Shown here: piece by piece, positions 47,456-58,838 of the stretch
How positions within the stretch are numbered: position 1 is the stretch's first letter
Layout of the letters: each line of letters opens with the position of its first letter
NCBI GenBank assembly: GCA_026125895.1
Contig: JAHCKG010000001.1
Location: 62,001-126,000, forward strand
Direction: 5' to 3'
DNA: 64,000 bases
Source of the DNA: Pseudolabrys sp.
Lineage (GTDB): Bacteria; Pseudomonadota; Alphaproteobacteria; Rhizobiales; Xanthobacteraceae
Translations under genes and position numbers: made by a program
The notes under the pieces: model-generated
Database searches by the model: none
Seen by the model: only the letters and a program-made list of their open reading frames with translations
Told to the model about the DNA's origin: nothing

Positions 47456-49525
47456 ATGGGCGAAGGGATTGTCGCGCGGCTTCGTGACTGGTGGGTGCTG
47501 ATTGTCGGCTTGATCCTCATCATCGGTGCGCTAGCGGCGACATCCTTTGTCAGGCCGCAAGAGTCCTCGACTTCGGTTGCGACAAGCGCCGGACCTGCTT
47601 CGGCGACCGCCGAGACGGGGAAGGCTGCTCAGGTGGCCAAGAGCCAGCCAGCGATAGCAGGTGCCGCGAGCTTGGCCTCCGGTGCCGCTCCGGATCACGC
47701 TCATCCCCCATCTCAACCGTCCTCCGCTGGCCGGACCGCTGTCGCTGAGCAGGGGGCTCCGTCGGCAGCGGCGCCTGCTGCGCCCGCTGCACCTGCTCGG
47801 CCCGTCTTATCAGCAGACGCGGCAGCAGGCAGTCAGGTGTTTCGGAAATGCCAGGCCTGCCATTCGCTCCAGCCGGGTAAGAATGGCGTGGGTCCTTCAT
47901 TGGCCGGTATCCTCGGCAAGAAGGCTGCAAGCATCGAAGGCTATAATTATTCCCAGGCGATGAAGGCCAGCGGGCTTACCTGGGACGAGAAGACACTCGA
48001 CGCCTATCTCACTGACCCTCAGAAGGTCGTACCCGGCAACAAAATGCCATTTCCGGGTTTGAAAACGGAGAATGAGCGCAATCGCCTGCTTACATATCTG
48101 AGAGAGGTTGCGTCTCCGGCAACTGCTGCACCGGCCGCAGCGGCCGCTCAACCTCAATCCGGGTCCGCGCAACCGACGCCTCCGCAGGCGGCGGCCCGGG
48201 CCGCCCCTAGTCCTGCGGCAGATGCCGCCACGAGCTACATCCCCGCCGTTCGGTACACGCTGCGCACGGGAATCGCTGAAGGACGCATGGTCTTTATCGG
48301 CGTCGGCGGCACCATTGACGAGCAGGTAAACCCCGTCTTGTCGGCTGCGGAAGGCCAGTTGGTTCAGGTTACGCTTATCAACGGCGAGGGCGCCGAGCAC
48401 GACATCGTCTTCGACCGTCAGGGGCCGGCCGGAAGCTCACCGCACGTCTACGGGAAGGGAGCGAGCACGAATATCGCCTTTGTCGCCTCGAAGGCCGGGG
48501 ACTACGTCTACTTCTGCAGCGTGCCGGGCCATCGGCTTGCGGGCATGGAAGGTCAATTCCTGATCACGCCACAGCCGCCCCCGCAGACCGTGTCCGAAGC
48601 AGACATATCGCATCTGGCATCGGACGTGCCGCAGCCAATCGGCAAGCGAGAGCCGCAAACCGTTCGGGTTGATCTGGTGACCGTCGAGTTGGAAGGACGC
48701 CTCGCGGAAGGCACCACGTTCGGTTACTGGACTTTCAATGGCAAGGTGCCGGGCCCCATGCTCCGCGTCCGCGTCGGCGACACGGTCGAGGTCCACCTCA
48801 AGAACGCTGACAACAGCGCTATGGTCCATTCGGTTGATTTTCACGCCGCCACTGGCCCGGGGGGAGGGGCTGTCTCGACGCAGACCAATCCAGGTGAAGA
48901 GAAGTCCTTTAAGTTTAAGGCTCTGATCCCTGGCCTCTACGTCTACCACTGCGCCACGCCTATGGTCGCGCATCACATTGCCAACGGCATGTACGGCCTC
49001 ATTCTCGTCGAGCCGGAAGAAGGACTTCCCCCTGTCGATCATGAGTTCTACGTCATGCAAGGGGAGATCTACACGGAAGGCGCTTTCGGTCAGCACGGCA
49101 GCCAGGAGTTCAATGTAGAGAAACTGCTGAGCGAGCGTCCGGAATACTTTGTATTCAACGGCTCGGTCGGCGCGCTTTCACGCCTTCATCCCCTGCAAGC
49201 CAAGGTGGGCGACACCGTTCGGATATTCTTCGGCGTCGGCGGACCGAACTACACGTCTTCATTCCATGTGATCGGCGAGATCTTCGATAAAGTATATAAT
49301 CTCGGCGGCATCCTCAGCGAGCCTTTGCGCGGCGTACAGACAGTCATGGTCCCTGCCGGTGGCGCGGTCATCACCGAGTTTAAGGTCGATGTGCCGGGCA
49401 ACTACACGCTGGTCGATCACGCCCTGTCCCGTGCTGAGCGTGGTCTTATCGGCGTTTTGCACGTGGAGGGCGCGCCAAATCCGGAAATCTACGACGGCAA
49501 AGTGGAGGCTGGATCGGGGCATTAA
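47456..49525 (+). CDS. nirK: Membrane-anchored cytochrome c-cupredoxin-NirK fusion (copper nitrite reductase)
   Basis: 689 aa. Reduces nitrite to NO in the periplasm. Order: one N-terminal membrane helix (12-30), Ala/Pro-rich linker (31-116), class I cytochrome c (CQACH 132-136, likely axial Met197), second linker (223-262), cupredoxin (H315, C354, H359, M364), then a two-domain NirK. NirK type 1 copper ligands are H458, C499, H507, M512; type 2 ligands H463, H498, H655; catalytic Asp461 and His604 are present. The short HCATPMVAHHIANGM linker is of the class II kind. Common NirK is about 360 aa. The extra heme and copper domains could wire the enzyme internally to the bc1/quinol chain. Confidence 0.93.
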   Translation: MGEGIVARLRDWWVLIVGLILIIGALAATSFVRPQESSTSVATSAGPASATAETGKAAQVAKSQPAIAGAASLASGAAPDHAHPPSQPSSAGRTAVAEQGAPSAAAPAAPAAPARPVLSADAAAGSQVFRKCQACHSLQPGKNGVGPSLAGILGKKAASIEGYNYSQAMKASGLTWDEKTLDAYLTDPQKVVPGNKMPFPGLKTENERNRLLTYLREVASPATAAPAAAAAQPQSGSAQPTPPQAAARAAPSPAADAATSYIPAVRYTLRTGIAEGRMVFIGVGGTIDEQVNPVLSAAEGQLVQVTLINGEGAEHDIVFDRQGPAGSSPHVYGKGASTNIAFVASKAGDYVYFCSVPGHRLAGMEGQFLITPQPPPQTVSEADISHLASDVPQPIGKREPQTVRVDLVTVELEGRLAEGTTFGYWTFNGKVPGPMLRVRVGDTVEVHLKNADNSAMVHSVDFHAATGPGGGAVSTQTNPGEEKSFKFKALIPGLYVYHCATPMVAHHIANGMYGLILVEPEEGLPPVDHEFYVMQGEIYTEGAFGQHGSQEFNVEKLLSERPEYFVFNGSVGALSRLHPLQAKVGDTVRIFFGVGGPNYTSSFHVIGEIFDKVYNLGGILSEPLRGVQTVMVPAGGAVITEFKVDVPGNYTLVDHALSRAERGLIGVLHVEGAPNPEIYDGKVEAGSGH

Positions 49526-49954: not shown

Positions 49955-50650
49955 ATGGCCCAACTGGATCAGTCGCTAGTTTCCGAGTTGCCTTTGTTCG
50001 CCGGCCTTCAGAAGGTCGATCTGAACGACATCTTGCGGGAAGCGCATCCGCTGCATCGTCCTAAGAACACAGTGGTGTTCGAACAGGGAGAAGATGCGCA
50101 CTCATTCTTCGTCTTGCTTCACGGCCATGTGCGTGCGGCGAAGATGACGCCCGGCGGCCACCAGATTGTGGTGCGCTACGTCACCCCCGGCGAAACGTTC
50201 GGCGTTGCCGCAGCGCTGGGGCTAAGTGCCTATCCGGCGACCGCGACGGCGGTCGACGACAGTTTGGTCTTGGCCTGGCCGTCGGCGGCGTGGCCGCGTC
50301 TGTCGTCGAGATATCCGGTATTGGCGGCGAAGACATTGCAAACCGTCGGCGAGCGTCTGCAGGATTCGCATACCCGGATTATTGAGATATCGACCGAGCA
50401 GGTCGAACGGCGTGTGGCGCGAGCGCTGCTGCGTCTCATCCGACAGGCCGGGCGCAAGACGGATAACGGCATCGAGATCGACTTTCCCATCAGCCGCCAG
50501 GACATCGCCGAAATGACCGGGACGACGCTTTATAGCGTCAGCCGCGTCCTGAGCGGTTGGGAAGGGCAGGGCATCGTCGAGGGCGGACGCCAGAAAATCC
50601 TAGTGTGCAATCCGCACAAGCTGGCTCAGATCGGAGACGAGGTCAATTAG
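49955..50650 (+). CDS. Crp/Fnr-family regulator (NnrR/Dnr-like)
   Basis: 231 aa. A cyclic-nucleotide-binding-like fold (residues ~12-125) is followed by a Crp-type HTH with ISRQDIAEMTGTTLYSVSRV as recognition region. The N-terminus lacks the Cys cluster of Fnr, so it should not carry that 4Fe-4S cluster; NnrR/Dnr proteins of this type sense NO, often through heme. Its place between nirK and the nos genes makes it the likely local regulator of the boxes at 53789 and 54509. That assignment is inference. Confidence 0.87.
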   Translation: MAQLDQSLVSELPLFAGLQKVDLNDILREAHPLHRPKNTVVFEQGEDAHSFFVLLHGHVRAAKMTPGGHQIVVRYVTPGETFGVAAALGLSAYPATATAVDDSLVLAWPSAAWPRLSSRYPVLAAKTLQTVGERLQDSHTRIIEISTEQVERRVARALLRLIRQAGRKTDNGIEIDFPISRQDIAEMTGTTLYSVSRVLSGWEGQGIVEGGRQKILVCNPHKLAQIGDEVN

Positions 50651-52028: not shown

Positions 52029-53378
52029 CTACTGCGAGGCGAGCAAAGCTGGCCGGCGCGCCAAATGTAAAATCCGCAATTCCGGTCTTACGTCGAGCAA
52101 GAGGCGCGTGCGTGCGATCTCCACGGCGATGCCGGTCGCTCCGCCTAGCATCAGCACTGCTGAAGCGCGAAATACCTCGGGCGCATCGAGCAGCAAGCAG
52201 GCGGTCGCGCTCCAGACGCCGGCGAAATAGATCCAGAACCACTTGGCCGCACGCGGCTCGACGACAAGGTCCTGAACGCGTGGTGTCGCGGTCGTGCCGA
52301 GCACCGGGCCAAAACATTCGAGCCAGGTCAGGAAGGCAACGATCTTGTAGAGCTTGGCGAGGCCCAAGCCGGTGAGCCAGCCGAAGGCCGCCAGAAACAC
52401 GATGGCCCCGATTTGATCCTCGAATTGGCTGGCCGCCACGAGAACTACCGACAGAACAGCGACGCCCGCGAGATTGGCGAGCGCGATGGCGGCCATGCGG
52501 GCGTTGAGCTCAATTTTGCGACGCTTCCGAGCGCGGTAAAGATGGAGGATGTCCGCGCCATAAAGAGAAAGGGCACAGGTGCCGAGAAGGCCGGCCACAA
52601 GGAGAAAGGCTGTAGGATGCCCGCCCATCCCGATGGCGACCGTGCCGCCTACAATTGCGACGGCTAGCGCGGCGGTGCCGTAATAAAGAACCGCGCGCGA
52701 TCGTGGGGTTTCGCTTTCCGGAGCCAGCATGAACATGGCCAATAAGCGATAGCTGACGCCAATGGCCGTGAAGGTTAGCCAGCCGGAGAGTCCCGCAATG
52801 GCATGTACGGGAATTCCGTAAGTCGCGATATCGGCAAGCGGCGGGCCGCTGGCGCTGCCATCGAGAACCAATGCAAAGACGAAACCGAGCGTTGCTGTGG
52901 CCGCAGCGCAGAGCAGGCCAACGGTGACGAACCGGGCCGCAAGCGGCAGAGGTCGTGCTTGCCACAGCGTACGGCCGAGGTTCCAGAGTGCGAGCGCGAA
53001 TCCACAGCCAAGCAGAACGGCCGCCGGGGAAAAACAAGAGTGGAGCGCGGGGATGCGGCCTCCAAGCTGCAGAAAGCCGCCGACCAATATGGTGAGACCG
53101 ACTACGAGGAGCGCAAGCGTGGGCAGTGGCAACGTATTGCTATAGATCGGCTTGGCTACCAGTACCGGTACGAACTGAAACAGTGCACCGAACATCAAAA
53201 GGCTGAGCCAGCCGATAGCGATCAGATGGACGAGGACAAGCGAATCGGGAGCGCGGAGTTCGGCGCTGGGGAAGCCAAATCCGACCACCATCAGCGCCTC
53301 GCCGGCCAGCAGGCAGGCGAGCGCGACGGCGAAGTAGGACATCGACCAGCGGGAGAGCGTTGCGCCGACCATGGGCAA
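52029..53378 (-). CDS. NnrS-like / heme-copper-oxidase-like membrane protein
   Basis: 449 aa with about 12 hydrophobic helices. Conserved membrane His are visible in LVLVHLIAIGWLSLLMFGAL and in PVHAIAGLSGWLTFTAIG. Such proteins resemble NnrS and the COX1-like proteins of denitrifiers, which protect against or respond to NO, possibly with heme. The context (DUF2249 genes on both sides, Crp/Fnr regulator and nirK nearby) supports an NO-related role; biochemistry cannot be read from sequence. Confidence 0.75.
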   Translation of the reverse strand: MPMVGATLSRWSMSYFAVALACLLAGEALMVVGFGFPSAELRAPDSLVLVHLIAIGWLSLLMFGALFQFVPVLVAKPIYSNTLPLPTLALLVVGLTILVGGFLQLGGRIPALHSCFSPAAVLLGCGFALALWNLGRTLWQARPLPLAARFVTVGLLCAAATATLGFVFALVLDGSASGPPLADIATYGIPVHAIAGLSGWLTFTAIGVSYRLLAMFMLAPESETPRSRAVLYYGTAALAVAIVGGTVAIGMGGHPTAFLLVAGLLGTCALSLYGADILHLYRARKRRKIELNARMAAIALANLAGVAVLSVVLVAASQFEDQIGAIVFLAAFGWLTGLGLAKLYKIVAFLTWLECFGPVLGTTATPRVQDLVVEPRAAKWFWIYFAGVWSATACLLLDAPEVFRASAVLMLGGATGIAVEIARTRLLLDVRPELRILHLARRPALLASQ

Positions 53379-53802: not shown

Positions 53803-53926
53803 CCTCGGCGAGTTTGCGCCAGCGCAAAGAAACTGCGCGACGTTGGCCGCACATACGATGCCGTCGATCCGAGGAGACCGCGCATTCTGCGCGGACGCCG
53901 TCTCGGACAGACGAAAAGGAGCGAAT

Positions 53927-54388
53927 ATGAAATTTGCGAGAGTTCTGGTCGCTGCGGGCATGATCGTGTTCGCTGGCGGCTTGGCGGCGCACGCCGCCGA
54001 ATATCAGGTCCAGACCCTGAACAAATCGACCAATGGCATGTTCCAGTTCGAGCCGCAGCAGCTGAAAATTCAGCCGGGCGACACCGTGCACTTCGTTGCC
54101 AAGGACAAGGGCCATAATGTCGAAACCATCGAGGGGATGATTCCTGATGGAGCATCGCCCTTCAAAAGCGGATTCGGCCAGGACTTCACGGTTACCTTCA
54201 CCAACGCGGGTGTGTACGGCATCAAATGCGCACCGCACTATGGTATGGGTATGGTCGGCCTTATCGTGGTCGGCGATGCTTCGGGGAACTTGAAGAAGGC
54301 GGAAGCCGTCAGTCACCCTGGCAAGGCCAAGTCGACTTTTGCTGCCCTGTTCAAGACGGTCAGCACCCAAACAGCAGCGCAGCGCTGA
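53927..54388 (+). CDS. paz: Pseudoazurin (type 1 blue copper protein)
   Basis: 153 aa from the ATG at 53927, preceded by AAAAGGAG. A signal peptide (MKFARVLVAAGMIVFAGGLA, cut after AHA) precedes a cupredoxin fold. Copper ligands H63 (KGHNVET), C101, H104 and M109 (CAPHYGMGM) are all present, spaced as in pseudoazurin. It carries electrons in the periplasm from the cytochrome chain to NirK and NosZ. It sits between the NirK set and nosR, with an FNR-type box upstream. Confidence 0.94.
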   Translation: MKFARVLVAAGMIVFAGGLAAHAAEYQVQTLNKSTNGMFQFEPQQLKIQPGDTVHFVAKDKGHNVETIEGMIPDGASPFKSGFGQDFTVTFTNAGVYGIKCAPHYGMGMVGLIVVGDASGNLKKAEAVSHPGKAKSTFAALFKTVSTQTAAQR

Positions 54389-54596: not shown

Positions 54597-56894
54597 ATGA
54601 TCCAAGGAACCCATCGTCGCAAGCACAGCCTGCTGGGCGCGCTTTCGGTTGGCCTGCTGCTTTTTGCGACGGGGATGCCCGCGCAAGCACAGAGCAGGCT
54701 TTCCGAGTTCCTCCAACAGCTTCAGCCGCACGATATCGAGCCGGCGGCGGACCAATTCGGCGCGGTGTCCGGTGCGGTTCCGGCCGCGCCGCTGCTCAAA
54801 CAGGGCAAGGTCGTCGGATACGCGTTTCTGAACGCCGACGTCGTCGATTCGACCGGCTATTCCGGCAAGCCGATCAATATCGTGATCGGTCTCGATAACG
54901 AGGCCCGCATTACCGGTGCCAAACTGGTCGAGCACCACGAGCCGATTTTTCTGGTCGGCATCCCGCAGACCAAAGTGGAAAAGTTCATCCACGATAATGT
55001 CGGCCGCAGAGTGCTCGCCGCCGACAACGCCTCGGGCTCCGCAGCCGACATCGTCAGCGGCGCCACCGTCAGCTCGATGGTGATCGCCGACAGCATCACG
55101 CGCGCGGCGATCAAGGTGGCGCAGGCCTACAAGCTGGGCGGCGGTGCAGCGGCCGTCGCTGTGGCAGAGCCGGTGTCACGCAAGATCGACCCGGGCAAAA
55201 TCCTGTCGAAAGGCTGGGTCGAACTCACCGGCGATGGATCGGTGCGCCGCTTGCTGCTCACCAGTGACGATGTCAATAAGGCCTTCGCCAAGTCCGGTAA
55301 CGCCGCGGCCATCGCGCGTCCGGCGCAGGGTGAGCCCGATGCGCCCTTTGTCGATCTTTACGCTGCTCTCGTGAGCGTGCCAAGCATCGGCGAGAGCCTG
55401 CTCGGATCGGCCGCATACAGAAATCTGAAGAATCGTCTTGGCGATGGCGGCCAGGCAATCCTCATTGCGGGCGCCGGTTCGTATTCGTTCCGCGGGTCTG
55501 GCTATGTGCGTGGCGGCATCTTCGACCGCATCGAGGTCATTCAAGGCCAGACTAGCATTCGCTTCCGCGACCGCGATTACGAACGCGTAGGATCGCTGGC
55601 AGCGTCAGGCGCGCCGGAATTTCCCGAGATTGGCCTGTTCGTCCTGCCCAAGGGACAACAGTTCGATCCCGGCAAGCCGTGGCGCTTGCAGTTGCTGGTG
55701 CAGCGGGTGACCGGCGCCCTGGACAAGGCGTTCATTAATGTCGGCGTCGGTTACTCGGTTCCAGAGCAGTACTTGCTTCCGATCGAAGCCGCGGCGCCCG
55801 CAGCGCCCGCGCCAGCCAACGCAGGCGCGGCGGCCCAGCCGGTATCGACCCGCTCTGCCGCGCGTGAAGCCGCGCCTTCGGCGGGCGAACCGCTATGGCT
55901 GAAGATCTGGCGAGGGAAGGCGGTCGACATCGCCATCCTGGTTGTCGCCATCCTGGTCCTTACCGGCATTTTCTTCTTCCAGGACGTTTTGGTGAAGCGG
56001 CCGAAACTGTTCGAGCGCATTCGGATGTCCTATCTGGCGTTCACGCTGCTGTGGCTCGGCTGGTACCAGCACGCGCAGCTTTCCGTGGTCAATGTCTTCA
56101 CATTCTTCCAGGAACTGCGCGGGCACTTCCAGTGGGAGCACTTTCTCAACGATCCACTGATCTTCATCCTTTGGGGCTCGGTCGCAGCTGCGCTTCTGTT
56201 CTGGGGGCGCGGCGCCTACTGCGGCTGGCTGTGCCCATTCGGCGCGCTCCAGGAGTGGATGAACAAGATTGCCCGGTGGCTGCACGTGCCGCAGCTCAAG
56301 GTGCCGTTCGGATTGCATCAGCGGCTATGGCCGATCAAATACATCATCTTCTTGGCGCTATTTGGGGTGTCGCTCGGATCGCTGGCCCTCGCGGAAAGCC
56401 TCGCTGAAGTCGAACCGTTCAAGACGGCGATCATCCTGCATTTCATGCGCGATTGGTGGTTCGTACTCATTGCGGTCGCCTTCCTGCTCCCGGGACTTTT
56501 CGTCGAGCGCTTCTACTGCCGCTACATGTGCCCGCTCGGCGGCGCGCTGGCGATACCGGCCCGCGTTCGCATGTTCGATTGGCTGCGGCGCTATCGCGAG
56601 TGCGGCTCGCCCTGTCAGCGCTGCGCGCAGGAGTGCCCCGTACAGGCGATCCATCCGGAAGGGCAAATCAACCCCAACGAGTGCATCCAGTGCATGAATT
56701 GTCAGGTGCTCTACCACCATGACCAGAAGTGCCCGGTGATGATTCAGTTGCGGCTCAAGCGTGAGAAGTTTCACGCGCTGTCGTCGCCGTCAATGAGACC
56801 CGGCGCGACGACCGCGAAACCGGCCTTTCCCCCAGCCACCGCCGGCGAGAAATCGCTGGACAAGACCGAGGTGCGCCTGCCGGCCACCGATTAG
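54597..56894 (+). CDS. nosR: Nitrous oxide reductase regulator / electron donor NosR
   Basis: 765 aa. Polytopic flavo-iron-sulfur protein required to supply electrons to NosZ and for nos expression. Signal peptide (~1-32), a periplasmic FMN-binding domain (~60-380; covalent flavin Thr in the SGATVSS motif), about five to six membrane helices, the two CxxxCP motifs (CGWLCPFG, CRYMCPLG), and a C-terminal cytoplasmic 2x[4Fe-4S] ferredoxin region (CGSPCQRCAQECP; CIQCMNCQ). First gene of the nos operon, with an FNR-type box upstream. Confidence 0.96.
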   Translation: MIQGTHRRKHSLLGALSVGLLLFATGMPAQAQSRLSEFLQQLQPHDIEPAADQFGAVSGAVPAAPLLKQGKVVGYAFLNADVVDSTGYSGKPINIVIGLDNEARITGAKLVEHHEPIFLVGIPQTKVEKFIHDNVGRRVLAADNASGSAADIVSGATVSSMVIADSITRAAIKVAQAYKLGGGAAAVAVAEPVSRKIDPGKILSKGWVELTGDGSVRRLLLTSDDVNKAFAKSGNAAAIARPAQGEPDAPFVDLYAALVSVPSIGESLLGSAAYRNLKNRLGDGGQAILIAGAGSYSFRGSGYVRGGIFDRIEVIQGQTSIRFRDRDYERVGSLAASGAPEFPEIGLFVLPKGQQFDPGKPWRLQLLVQRVTGALDKAFINVGVGYSVPEQYLLPIEAAAPAAPAPANAGAAAQPVSTRSAAREAAPSAGEPLWLKIWRGKAVDIAILVVAILVLTGIFFFQDVLVKRPKLFERIRMSYLAFTLLWLGWYQHAQLSVVNVFTFFQELRGHFQWEHFLNDPLIFILWGSVAAALLFWGRGAYCGWLCPFGALQEWMNKIARWLHVPQLKVPFGLHQRLWPIKYIIFLALFGVSLGSLALAESLAEVEPFKTAIILHFMRDWWFVLIAVAFLLPGLFVERFYCRYMCPLGGALAIPARVRMFDWLRRYRECGSPCQRCAQECPVQAIHPEGQINPNECIQCMNCQVLYHHDQKCPVMIQLRLKREKFHALSSPSMRPGATTAKPAFPPATAGEKSLDKTEVRLPATD

Positions 56895-56906
56895 AGGAGC
56901 AAATCA

Positions 56907-58838
56907 ATGACGGATCACGGGAAGAGCGACGAAGGGCTGAGCAGGCGCAGGCTGCTCGCGCGCGGTACGAGCGCGGTTGCATTGACCGGGCTAGCGGCCG
57001 GCGGTGGCGCGGCCGGCATGCTGGAGTTCTCGCAGGCCGCGCTCGCGCAGCAGGCGTCGCGGCGGACTGGTAGTTCGGTCGAGGTTCGGCCCGGCGATCT
57101 CGATGAATATTATGGCTTCAGCAGCAGCGGCCAGTGCGGCGAAGTTCGCGTGATGGGCATCCCGTCGATGCGGGAGATCATGCGCATTCCGGTGTTTAAC
57201 CGCGACAGCGCTACCGGCTGGGGCCAGACCAATGAAAGCCGCAAGGTTCTTACCGAGGGTTTGCTGCCGGCGACGCGCAAGTTCCTCGAAACGCGGGGTG
57301 GCACCTTCGTCAATGGCGACGCGCACCATCCGCACATGTCGTTCACCGACGGCACTTACGATGGGCGCTACATCTTCATCAATGACAAGGCAAATTGTCG
57401 CGTGGCGCGCATCCGCTGCGACGTGATGAAGTGCGACAAGATCATCGAGATACCGAACGCGTCAGATATCCATGGCTTGCGGCCGCAGAAGTATCCTCGC
57501 ACGGGCTACGTCTTTGCCAACAGTGAGCACGTCGTTCCTATCCCCAACGACGGCAGTGTGCTGGACGACCCGGAGCAATATTGGTCGGTGTTCACCGCCA
57601 TCGACGGCGACAGCATGACTGTCGCCTGGCAGGTGCTCGTTGATGGCAACCTCGACAACTGCGATGCCGATTACGAGGGCAAATACGCATTCTCTAGCTG
57701 CTACAACTCAGAGCGTGGCGTCACTCTGGCGGACATGACCTCCGCCGAGCGGGACTGGGTCGTCGTGTTCGACATCAAGCGCATCGAGCAGGCGATCTCC
57801 AAAGGAGATTTCAAGACCATGGGCGGCGTCAAGGTGGTCGACGGCCGCAAGGGCTCGCCGTACACGCGGTATATCCCGGTCGCCAACAATCCGCACGGCT
57901 GCAACATGGCACCGGACGGCATCCATCTGGTGCTCGCCGGCAAGCTGTCGCCGACGGTCACGGTGGTTGACGTGCGGCGGCTGGCCGACGTGTTCACCGA
58001 CAAGATCAAGCCGCGCGATGCCGTGGTGGCCGAGCCGGAACTGGGCCTCGGGCCGCTTCATACGGCTTATGACGGCAAGGGCAACGCTTTTACCACGCTG
58101 TTCATCGACAGCCAGGTGGTGAAATGGAACATCGACAAGGCCAAGCGCGCTTACAATGGCGAGAAGGTCGATCCGATCATCGAAAAGATCGATGTGCACT
58201 ACCAGCCGGGCCACAATCACACGTCGATGGGCGAGACCAAGGAGGCGGACGGCCGCTGGTTGATGTCACTGAACAAGTTCTCGAAGGATCGCTTCCTGCC
58301 GGCGGGTCCGCTGCACCCGGAGAACGATCAGCTGATCGACATCTCCGGAGCCAAGATGGAGCTGGTTCACGACGGCCCGAGCTATGCCGAGCCGCACGAC
58401 ATCTGCATCGTGCACCGCTCCAAGGTGAATCCGCTGCGCGTGTGGAAGCGCGACGATCCGAGTTGGGAGGAGGCGCGGCAGTGGGCGGTCAAAGACGGCG
58501 TCAAGCTGGAGGAGGGCGCCAATGTTATTCGCGACGGCAACAAGGTGCGTGTTTACATGTACTCCGTCGCGCCCGCCTACAGCCTCGAGAAGTTCACGGT
58601 CAAGCAGGGCGATGAAGTCACCATCTTCGTCACCAATATGGATGACGTGGAGGATCTGACGCACGGCTTCACGATCGTGCGCTACGGCGTGATGATGGAG
58701 ATCTCGCCGCAACAGACCTCATCGGTGACGTTCGTTGCCGACCGCCCCGGTGTGCATTGGTACTACTGCCAGTGGTTCTGCCACGCTATGCATATGGAGA
58801 TGGCCGGGCGGATGATCGTCGAGCCGCATCAAACATGA
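56907..58838 (+). CDS. nosZ: Nitrous oxide reductase NosZ
   Basis: 643 aa. Reduces N2O to N2 in the periplasm. A Tat signal ([10 protein letters not shown], then a hydrophobic stretch ending near ALAQ) makes it clade I. The propeller carries CuZ His ligands, e.g. DAHHPHMS and PGHNHTSMG. The C-terminal CuA site is intact ([16 protein letters not shown]). AGAGGAG precedes the ATG, 12 bp after nosR. Its last 4 nt overlap nosD. Confidence 0.98.

Follow-up and report, generated by a model that had tools for sequence, protein, structure and literature searches.

A predicted four-domain heme–cupredoxin–copper nitrite reductase of the BrNiR type encoded in a Pseudolabrys genome

The window, i.e., the whole stretch of 64,000 nucleotides of the Pseudolabrys sp. 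contig that was analysed, carries a nirK gene (47456..49525, + strand) whose 689-amino-acid product, judged by its sequence, is a member of the known family of four-domain heme–cupredoxin–copper nitrite reductases, with BrNiR as the type enzyme. The novelty of the architecture implied by the preliminary description is not borne out, since the four-domain type has already been described (PMC7775769, PMC8301774, PDB 6the), the outcome that the preliminary description itself had named as its refutation; the window gene adds one more member, from a genus that is not named in the accessible portions of the literature on this type. The protein is probably exported, and electrons would pass from the heme to the cupredoxin copper and then via the type 1 copper of the core to its type 2 copper.

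The gene is a single open frame with an ATG start, encoding on the + strand a hydrophobic N-terminal segment, a membrane anchor or a signal peptide to judge from its hydropathy and a model helix (residues 14–32; 47495..47551), an Ala/Pro/Ser-rich linker 1 (residues 33–114; 47552..47797), a heme c domain related to cytochrome c550 CycA (residues 118–220; 47807..48115), an Ala/Pro-rich linker 2 (residues 222–261; 48119..48238), an N-terminal cupredoxin (residues 262–372; 48239..48571), and the two-domain NirK core (residues 376–689; 48581..49522). The domains are recognised by Pfam, all above the gathering score (Cytochrom_C at 122–218, Copper-bind at 308–368, Cu-oxidase_3 at 422–522, and Cu-oxidase_2 at 568–671), and by the NCBIfam copper nitrite reductase model TIGR02376 (367 bits, cut-off 296). 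The summed content of Ala, Pro, Ser, Gln, and Thr reaches 74% in linker 1 and 90% in linker 2. The C-terminus of the protein is that of the NirK core (residue 689), without a C-terminal cytochrome c. The preliminary description gave the frame, its position, and its length exactly, and the order that it proposed (heme c, type 1 copper cupredoxin, two-copper NirK) is upheld by Pfam, TIGR02376, and the ligands, as are its Ala/Pro linkers by composition.

The heme attachment motif CQACH (residues 132–136; 47849..47863, + strand) and the proposed axial Met197 provide the heme residues C132, C135, H136, and M197, which are invariant in all 39 aligned rows (the window protein and 38 relatives), as are the type 1 ligands of the cupredoxin, H315, C354, H359, and M364. 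In the core, the type 1 ligands H458, C499, H507, and M512, the type 2 ligands H463 and H498, and the residues D461, H604, and I606 are invariant in all rows reaching these sites, one row (L086) being cut off before the later ones. The type 2 residue H655 is replaced by Trp in L054 only, whose frame departs near its end. The roles of single residues in the core are assigned following the general NirK literature. The assignment to NirK is based on the TIGR02376 match together with the presence of the catalytic Asp, D461, and His, H604. A single frame thus holds conserved predicted ligands for one c-type heme, for an extra type 1 copper, and for both copper sites of the core, type 1 and type 2.

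A scan of genome contigs yielded 234 relatives, the best 80 of which were read. Among these 80, the heme, cupredoxin, and NirK domains are joined in one frame in 39, while 26 comprise cupredoxin and NirK and 10 NirK alone; in three, from Anaerolineae, cupredoxin and NirK are accompanied by a heme domain, and one has two cupredoxins and NirK. The last, from Acidicaldus, is interrupted by a run of N. Two cupredoxin matches ahead of NirK are seen in the Anaerolineae locus L071:512-2461. To judge by record titles, the 39 four-domain loci come from Bradyrhizobium (8), Xanthobacteraceae (7), Hyphomicrobiales (7), Pseudolabrys (3), Afipia (2), Rhizobiales (2), and Rhodoplanes (1), and the other nine include Methyloceanibacter, Microvirga, Hyphomicrobiaceae, Rhodospirillales, and unplaced Proteobacteria. 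Of 60 genomes examined as relatives, with that of the window among them, six encode the full-length protein, and the protein of the closest named relative, Pseudolabrys sp. Root1462, is 79–81% identical over its full length. None of the 48 matching plasmid records covers 80% of the protein.

The NirK core of the window protein is 77% identical over 314 amino acids to PDB 6the, the core of BrNiR from Bradyrhizobium sp. ORS 375. In a quick core tree, built without bootstrap after ten rows had been dropped (eight near copies and two truncated), the window core, 34 other four-domain cores, and 6the form one clade with an SH-aLRT value of 99. Two four-domain loci, L057 and L059, lie outside this supported clade, and a tree keeping all four-domain rows together is 17.9 log units better. 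The likeness to BrNiR in sequence covers the core only; in the front half, the domain order agrees with that published for the BrNiR type, whose tethered cytochrome c and cupredoxin are N-terminal (PMC8301774, in its accessible part). Among the PDB matches listed there is no full-length four-domain structure, 6the being the core alone. HdNIR (PDB 2dv6 and 6tfd, aligning with residues 258–678 and 243–678 of the window protein) shares the cupredoxin and NirK, its 2dv6 core being 69% identical to that of the window protein, but lacks the heme domain, so the window protein falls outside the three-domain class. RpNiR and PhNiR (PDB 3ziy and 2zoo) likewise have a heme c fused to the NirK core, but at the opposite, C-terminal, end, and the best alignment with them covers the core alone. 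The contrast drawn in the preliminary description with HdNIR, with its N-terminal cupredoxin, and with the Ralstonia enzyme, with its C-terminal cytochrome, is correct.

Two candidates for a forerunner of the fusion were considered and rejected. A separate c550 gene beside a three-domain nirK was sought in Stutzerimonas, where the neighbour looks like NorC instead: the gene directly after the three-domain nirK (L075:7472-8314) is NorC-like, with a second cytochrome c domain. In the Acidicaldus locus (L072) the run of N separates the cytochrome from the remainder, which means that this locus could be a further four-domain gene.

The preferred reading of how the enzyme works is the following. 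The protein would be exported, its N-terminal helix may hold it at the membrane, and the NirK trimer would be formed in the periplasm. Electrons of the respiratory chain, delivered by bc1 or by a soluble carrier, would enter at the heme and pass to the cupredoxin copper, the type 1 copper of the core, and the type 2 copper, at which nitrite would be reduced to NO. The long Ala/Pro linkers could let the heme and the cupredoxin swing between donor and acceptor, and the tether may also restrain activity and not only speed it. Such an electron path is plausible for the window protein, and a relay from heme to copper to copper is its simplest reading because the ligands of both added centres are conserved throughout. 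In HdNIR, according to the accessible parts of the reports on it, the extra cupredoxin copper was found by pulse radiolysis to be reduced first, the electron then moving via the type 1 to the type 2 copper of the core, and in the crystals this copper lies ca. 24 Å from the core copper, a distance at which a relay inside a single chain is not self-evident. An AlphaFold2 model of the window protein, made as a single chain, is too weak to give distances between the metal sites (mean pLDDT 64.9, with values below 50 in both linkers; pTM 0.43).

The nearest NCBIfam model of the fused heme domain is that of c550 CycA (NF043008, 106 bits, below the cut-off of 240), and the fusion therefore resembles an HdNIR-type enzyme that has incorporated a donor of the c550 type. 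The c550 partner of NirK in B. japonicum is presumably CycA. Going by the title of a cited paper, NirK of B. japonicum has cytochrome c550 as its physiological partner. The window genome also has, at another place, a gene for a free CycA-like protein (NF043008, 208 bits, also below 240), and the window itself has one for a pseudoazurin, a possible soluble electron donor (53921..54388, + strand; TIGR02375, 149 bits with a cut-off of 109.85). Of the self-wired reductase proposed in the preliminary description, the electron path through heme and copper is retained as plausible in view of the strict ligand conservation, but the self-wiring is unsupported, and independence of soluble donors does not follow when a c550-like protein and a pseudoazurin are both encoded; nor does the review cited below, on the activity of BrNiR, lend it support.

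The presence of these two potential donors also fits another reading, in which the tether serves chiefly for regulation: the added domains would slow or gate the core, and its electrons would arrive from free c550 or pseudoazurin, as they do in enzymes with two domains. The abstract of the primary BrNiR paper, by Sasaki et al. in FEBS J, is said to speak of tethering as down-regulating. According to the accessible part of a review (PMC12117333), the domains added in BrNiR brought no gain in activity and might lower it, and the abstract of the 2020 IUCrJ paper on HdNIR speaks of a more complex role of tethering; however, a table in the same review gives 1.67 nmol/s for BrNiR without the cytochrome versus 9.38 nmol/s. 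The preservation of every heme and cupredoxin ligand goes beyond what a purely structural clamp would need, and a mainly regulatory tether is regarded as somewhat unlikely.

A further alternative accepts the family but takes the enzyme as soluble, its N-terminal signal peptide being cleaved to leave it free in the periplasm like HdNIR. The hydrophobic stretch (hydropathy 2.72 across 19 residues, taken from L024, whose sequence is identical in this segment) ends in Ala-Leu-Ala, a possible signal peptidase site, and in two four-domain proteins, those of L057 and L059, the N-terminal segment resembles a signal peptide and precedes the heme motif by 15 and 19 residues. AxA motifs occur in 14 of 36 four-domain and 16 of 26 three-domain rows, or 7 of 17 once nine near copies are dropped; with no contrast left between the two kinds, they were rejected as evidence of an anchor, and their similar frequency agrees with a soluble enzyme. 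Against cleavage speak, though not decisively, the linker of at least 72 residues separating the hydrophobic segment from the heme motif in 34 of 36 four-domain loci, the helix of 27 residues (3–29) in the AlphaFold2 model, and a median hydropathy higher in four-domain than in three-domain rows (2.27 vs 1.89, the latter in 26 rows), although three three-domain rows of Chloroflexota reach 2.63–2.74. The hydrophobic stretch itself is present in 36 of the 39 four-domain loci; L034 and L038 are without it in frame and L055 is cut by its contig. Membrane anchoring by the predicted N-terminal helix is thus plausible, and a soluble form is held to be possible but the less probable state. As for an artefact joining separate genes, for which only the draft state of the window genome speaks (50 contigs, 82% complete), it can be dismissed with near certainty, as the frame is open and identical (100%, rounded) in a separately assembled genome (G029, locus L024) and recurs in Pseudolabrys sp. 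Root1462, Afipia sp. 1NLS2, Bradyrhizobium, and many other separate records among the loci read, isolates included.

Downstream of nirK lie genes for a Crp/Fnr-family regulator, adjoining nirK (49955..50650, + strand; PF00027, PF13545), two DUF2249 proteins, an FeS-assembly protein, the pseudoazurin, NosR, NosZ, and NosD, with nosR and nosZ, for N2O reduction, at 54597..58838 (+ strand; NF046105, 817 bits, below the cut-off of 1000, and TIGR04244, 1137 bits with a cut-off of 625). Between the DUF2249 genes a protein of 449 amino acids, hydrophobic by eye, is encoded on the opposite strand (52029-53378, −); neither Pfam nor NCBIfam gives a match to it at E 0.001. No Fnr-type operator (TTGAT-N4-ATCAA with at most two mismatches) was found in the 500 bases before nirK. 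Across the window this motif, at the same tolerance, occurs 39 times versus 16 expected, and none of 100 shuffles reached 39.

Elsewhere in the window genome there is a full NarG match above the cut-off, no match to NapA above the cut-off, and none to the NirS family. In a NirS search of six genomes weak matches appeared in G014 alone, one of them marked as over the cut-off, with neighbours. A Stutzerimonas NorB query gave no match in the window genome (G000), G026, or G029, despite their NarG and NirK; this query matched three of eight genomes (its own source and those of L029 and L053), and those of L033 and L027 gave no match. PF22085 was found in none of six genomes, its control matching only in Haloferax.

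The window gene is the only nirK found in its genome, whereas in several Rhizobiales the four-domain heme-CuNiR of the BrNiR type is described as encoded beside a two-domain enzyme (PMC7775769, in its accessible part). The number of NirK copies was counted in 40 genomes, 39 of them with a four-domain locus and the fortieth that of the window, itself almost identical to one of the 39. The NirK family model has two matches above the cut-off in 17 genomes and a single one in 21, one of which (G489) also has a partial second match; in the remaining two, those of L054 and L086, the only match is below the cut-off. The 21 include the window genome, G015 (with L027; 100% complete), and G029 (with L024; 99% complete), and the latter two have no match to the NirS family. 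For genomes reached via named loci completeness is not given, so that an apparently sole NirK can there be a gap.

The same order of helix, heme, cupredoxin, and NirK is found in Anaerolineae, in a separate clade; a tree that puts these together with the four-domain rows of Alphaproteobacteria is rejected (107.9 log units, p 0.0005). In L091, the only one of the group scanned for this, the heme domain is matched by cytochrome models other than CycA, and throughout the group the cupredoxin Cys is replaced by Gly or Ala. A search of 396 genomes of this class, with at most three candidates scored per genome, gave matches at E ≤ 1e-80 in 54, and the 30 best loci were read. CxxCH is present in seven of the 30, four with a cupredoxin whose Cys is replaced by Gly, Ala, Asp, and Asp, and three without a cupredoxin; the 23 loci that lack CxxCH all keep His-Cys-His-Met. 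All six distinct Chloroflexota genes that were read and combine a heme motif with a cupredoxin thus lack the copper Cys (L090, L091, L092, L108, L129, and L131; L090 and L092 are included in the count, and L104, the L091 gene again, was counted once). They fall into two lineages kept apart by starred branches; in one of these, comprising L129 and L131, whose sequences differ from each other, CxxCH lies between the cupredoxin and NirK. In L127, L130, and L132 an N-terminal CxxCH domain is joined to NirK, no cupredoxin was found, and the N-terminus is lipoprotein-like by eye. L127, L129, and L131 have no match to a Pfam cytochrome model at E 0.001, so their heme is assigned from CxxCH and likeness to L130 and L132.

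Frames of cupredoxin, cytochrome C1, and NirK, which like the window gene join heme c, cupredoxin, and NirK, were reported by Schwartz et al. in 2022 from a few Chloroflexi MAGs as mutually identical, an assembly artefact being considered (PMC8756737, in its accessible part); in the text of that paper the words ‘ligand’, ‘type 1 copper’, and ‘cys’ do not occur. Loss of the cupredoxin copper Cys beside a heme in Chloroflexota may be new as far as the open-licence literature shows. The Chloroflexota genes differ from the alphaproteobacterial kind, which keeps both sites in all aligned rows, by their separate place in the tree and the missing Cys. It is tentatively proposed, at a probability just short of evenly balanced, that heme c was recruited about three times to cupredoxin–NirK enzymes, with the heme taking over and the cupredoxin copper being lost in two Chloroflexota lineages and both centres kept in series in the alphaproteobacterial line; heme and cupredoxin copper would then be interchangeable entry points, and the window's kind alone would be selected for a relay from heme to copper to copper. 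The trees are quick ones without bootstrap, the change counts do not tell gain from loss, and two lineages are too few for a test of this heme-for-copper pattern.

Denitrification becomes committed once nitrite is reduced to NO, a step that feeds the release of N2O, and enzymes of this type test whether fusing an enzyme to its electron donors speeds or throttles catalysis. Genomes in which no nitrite reductase was found besides a four-domain NirK could be better test beds than those in which a second NirK masks its role, and the Chloroflexota variants, whose cupredoxin has lost its copper site next to a heme, would offer a natural control for the role of the extra cupredoxin.
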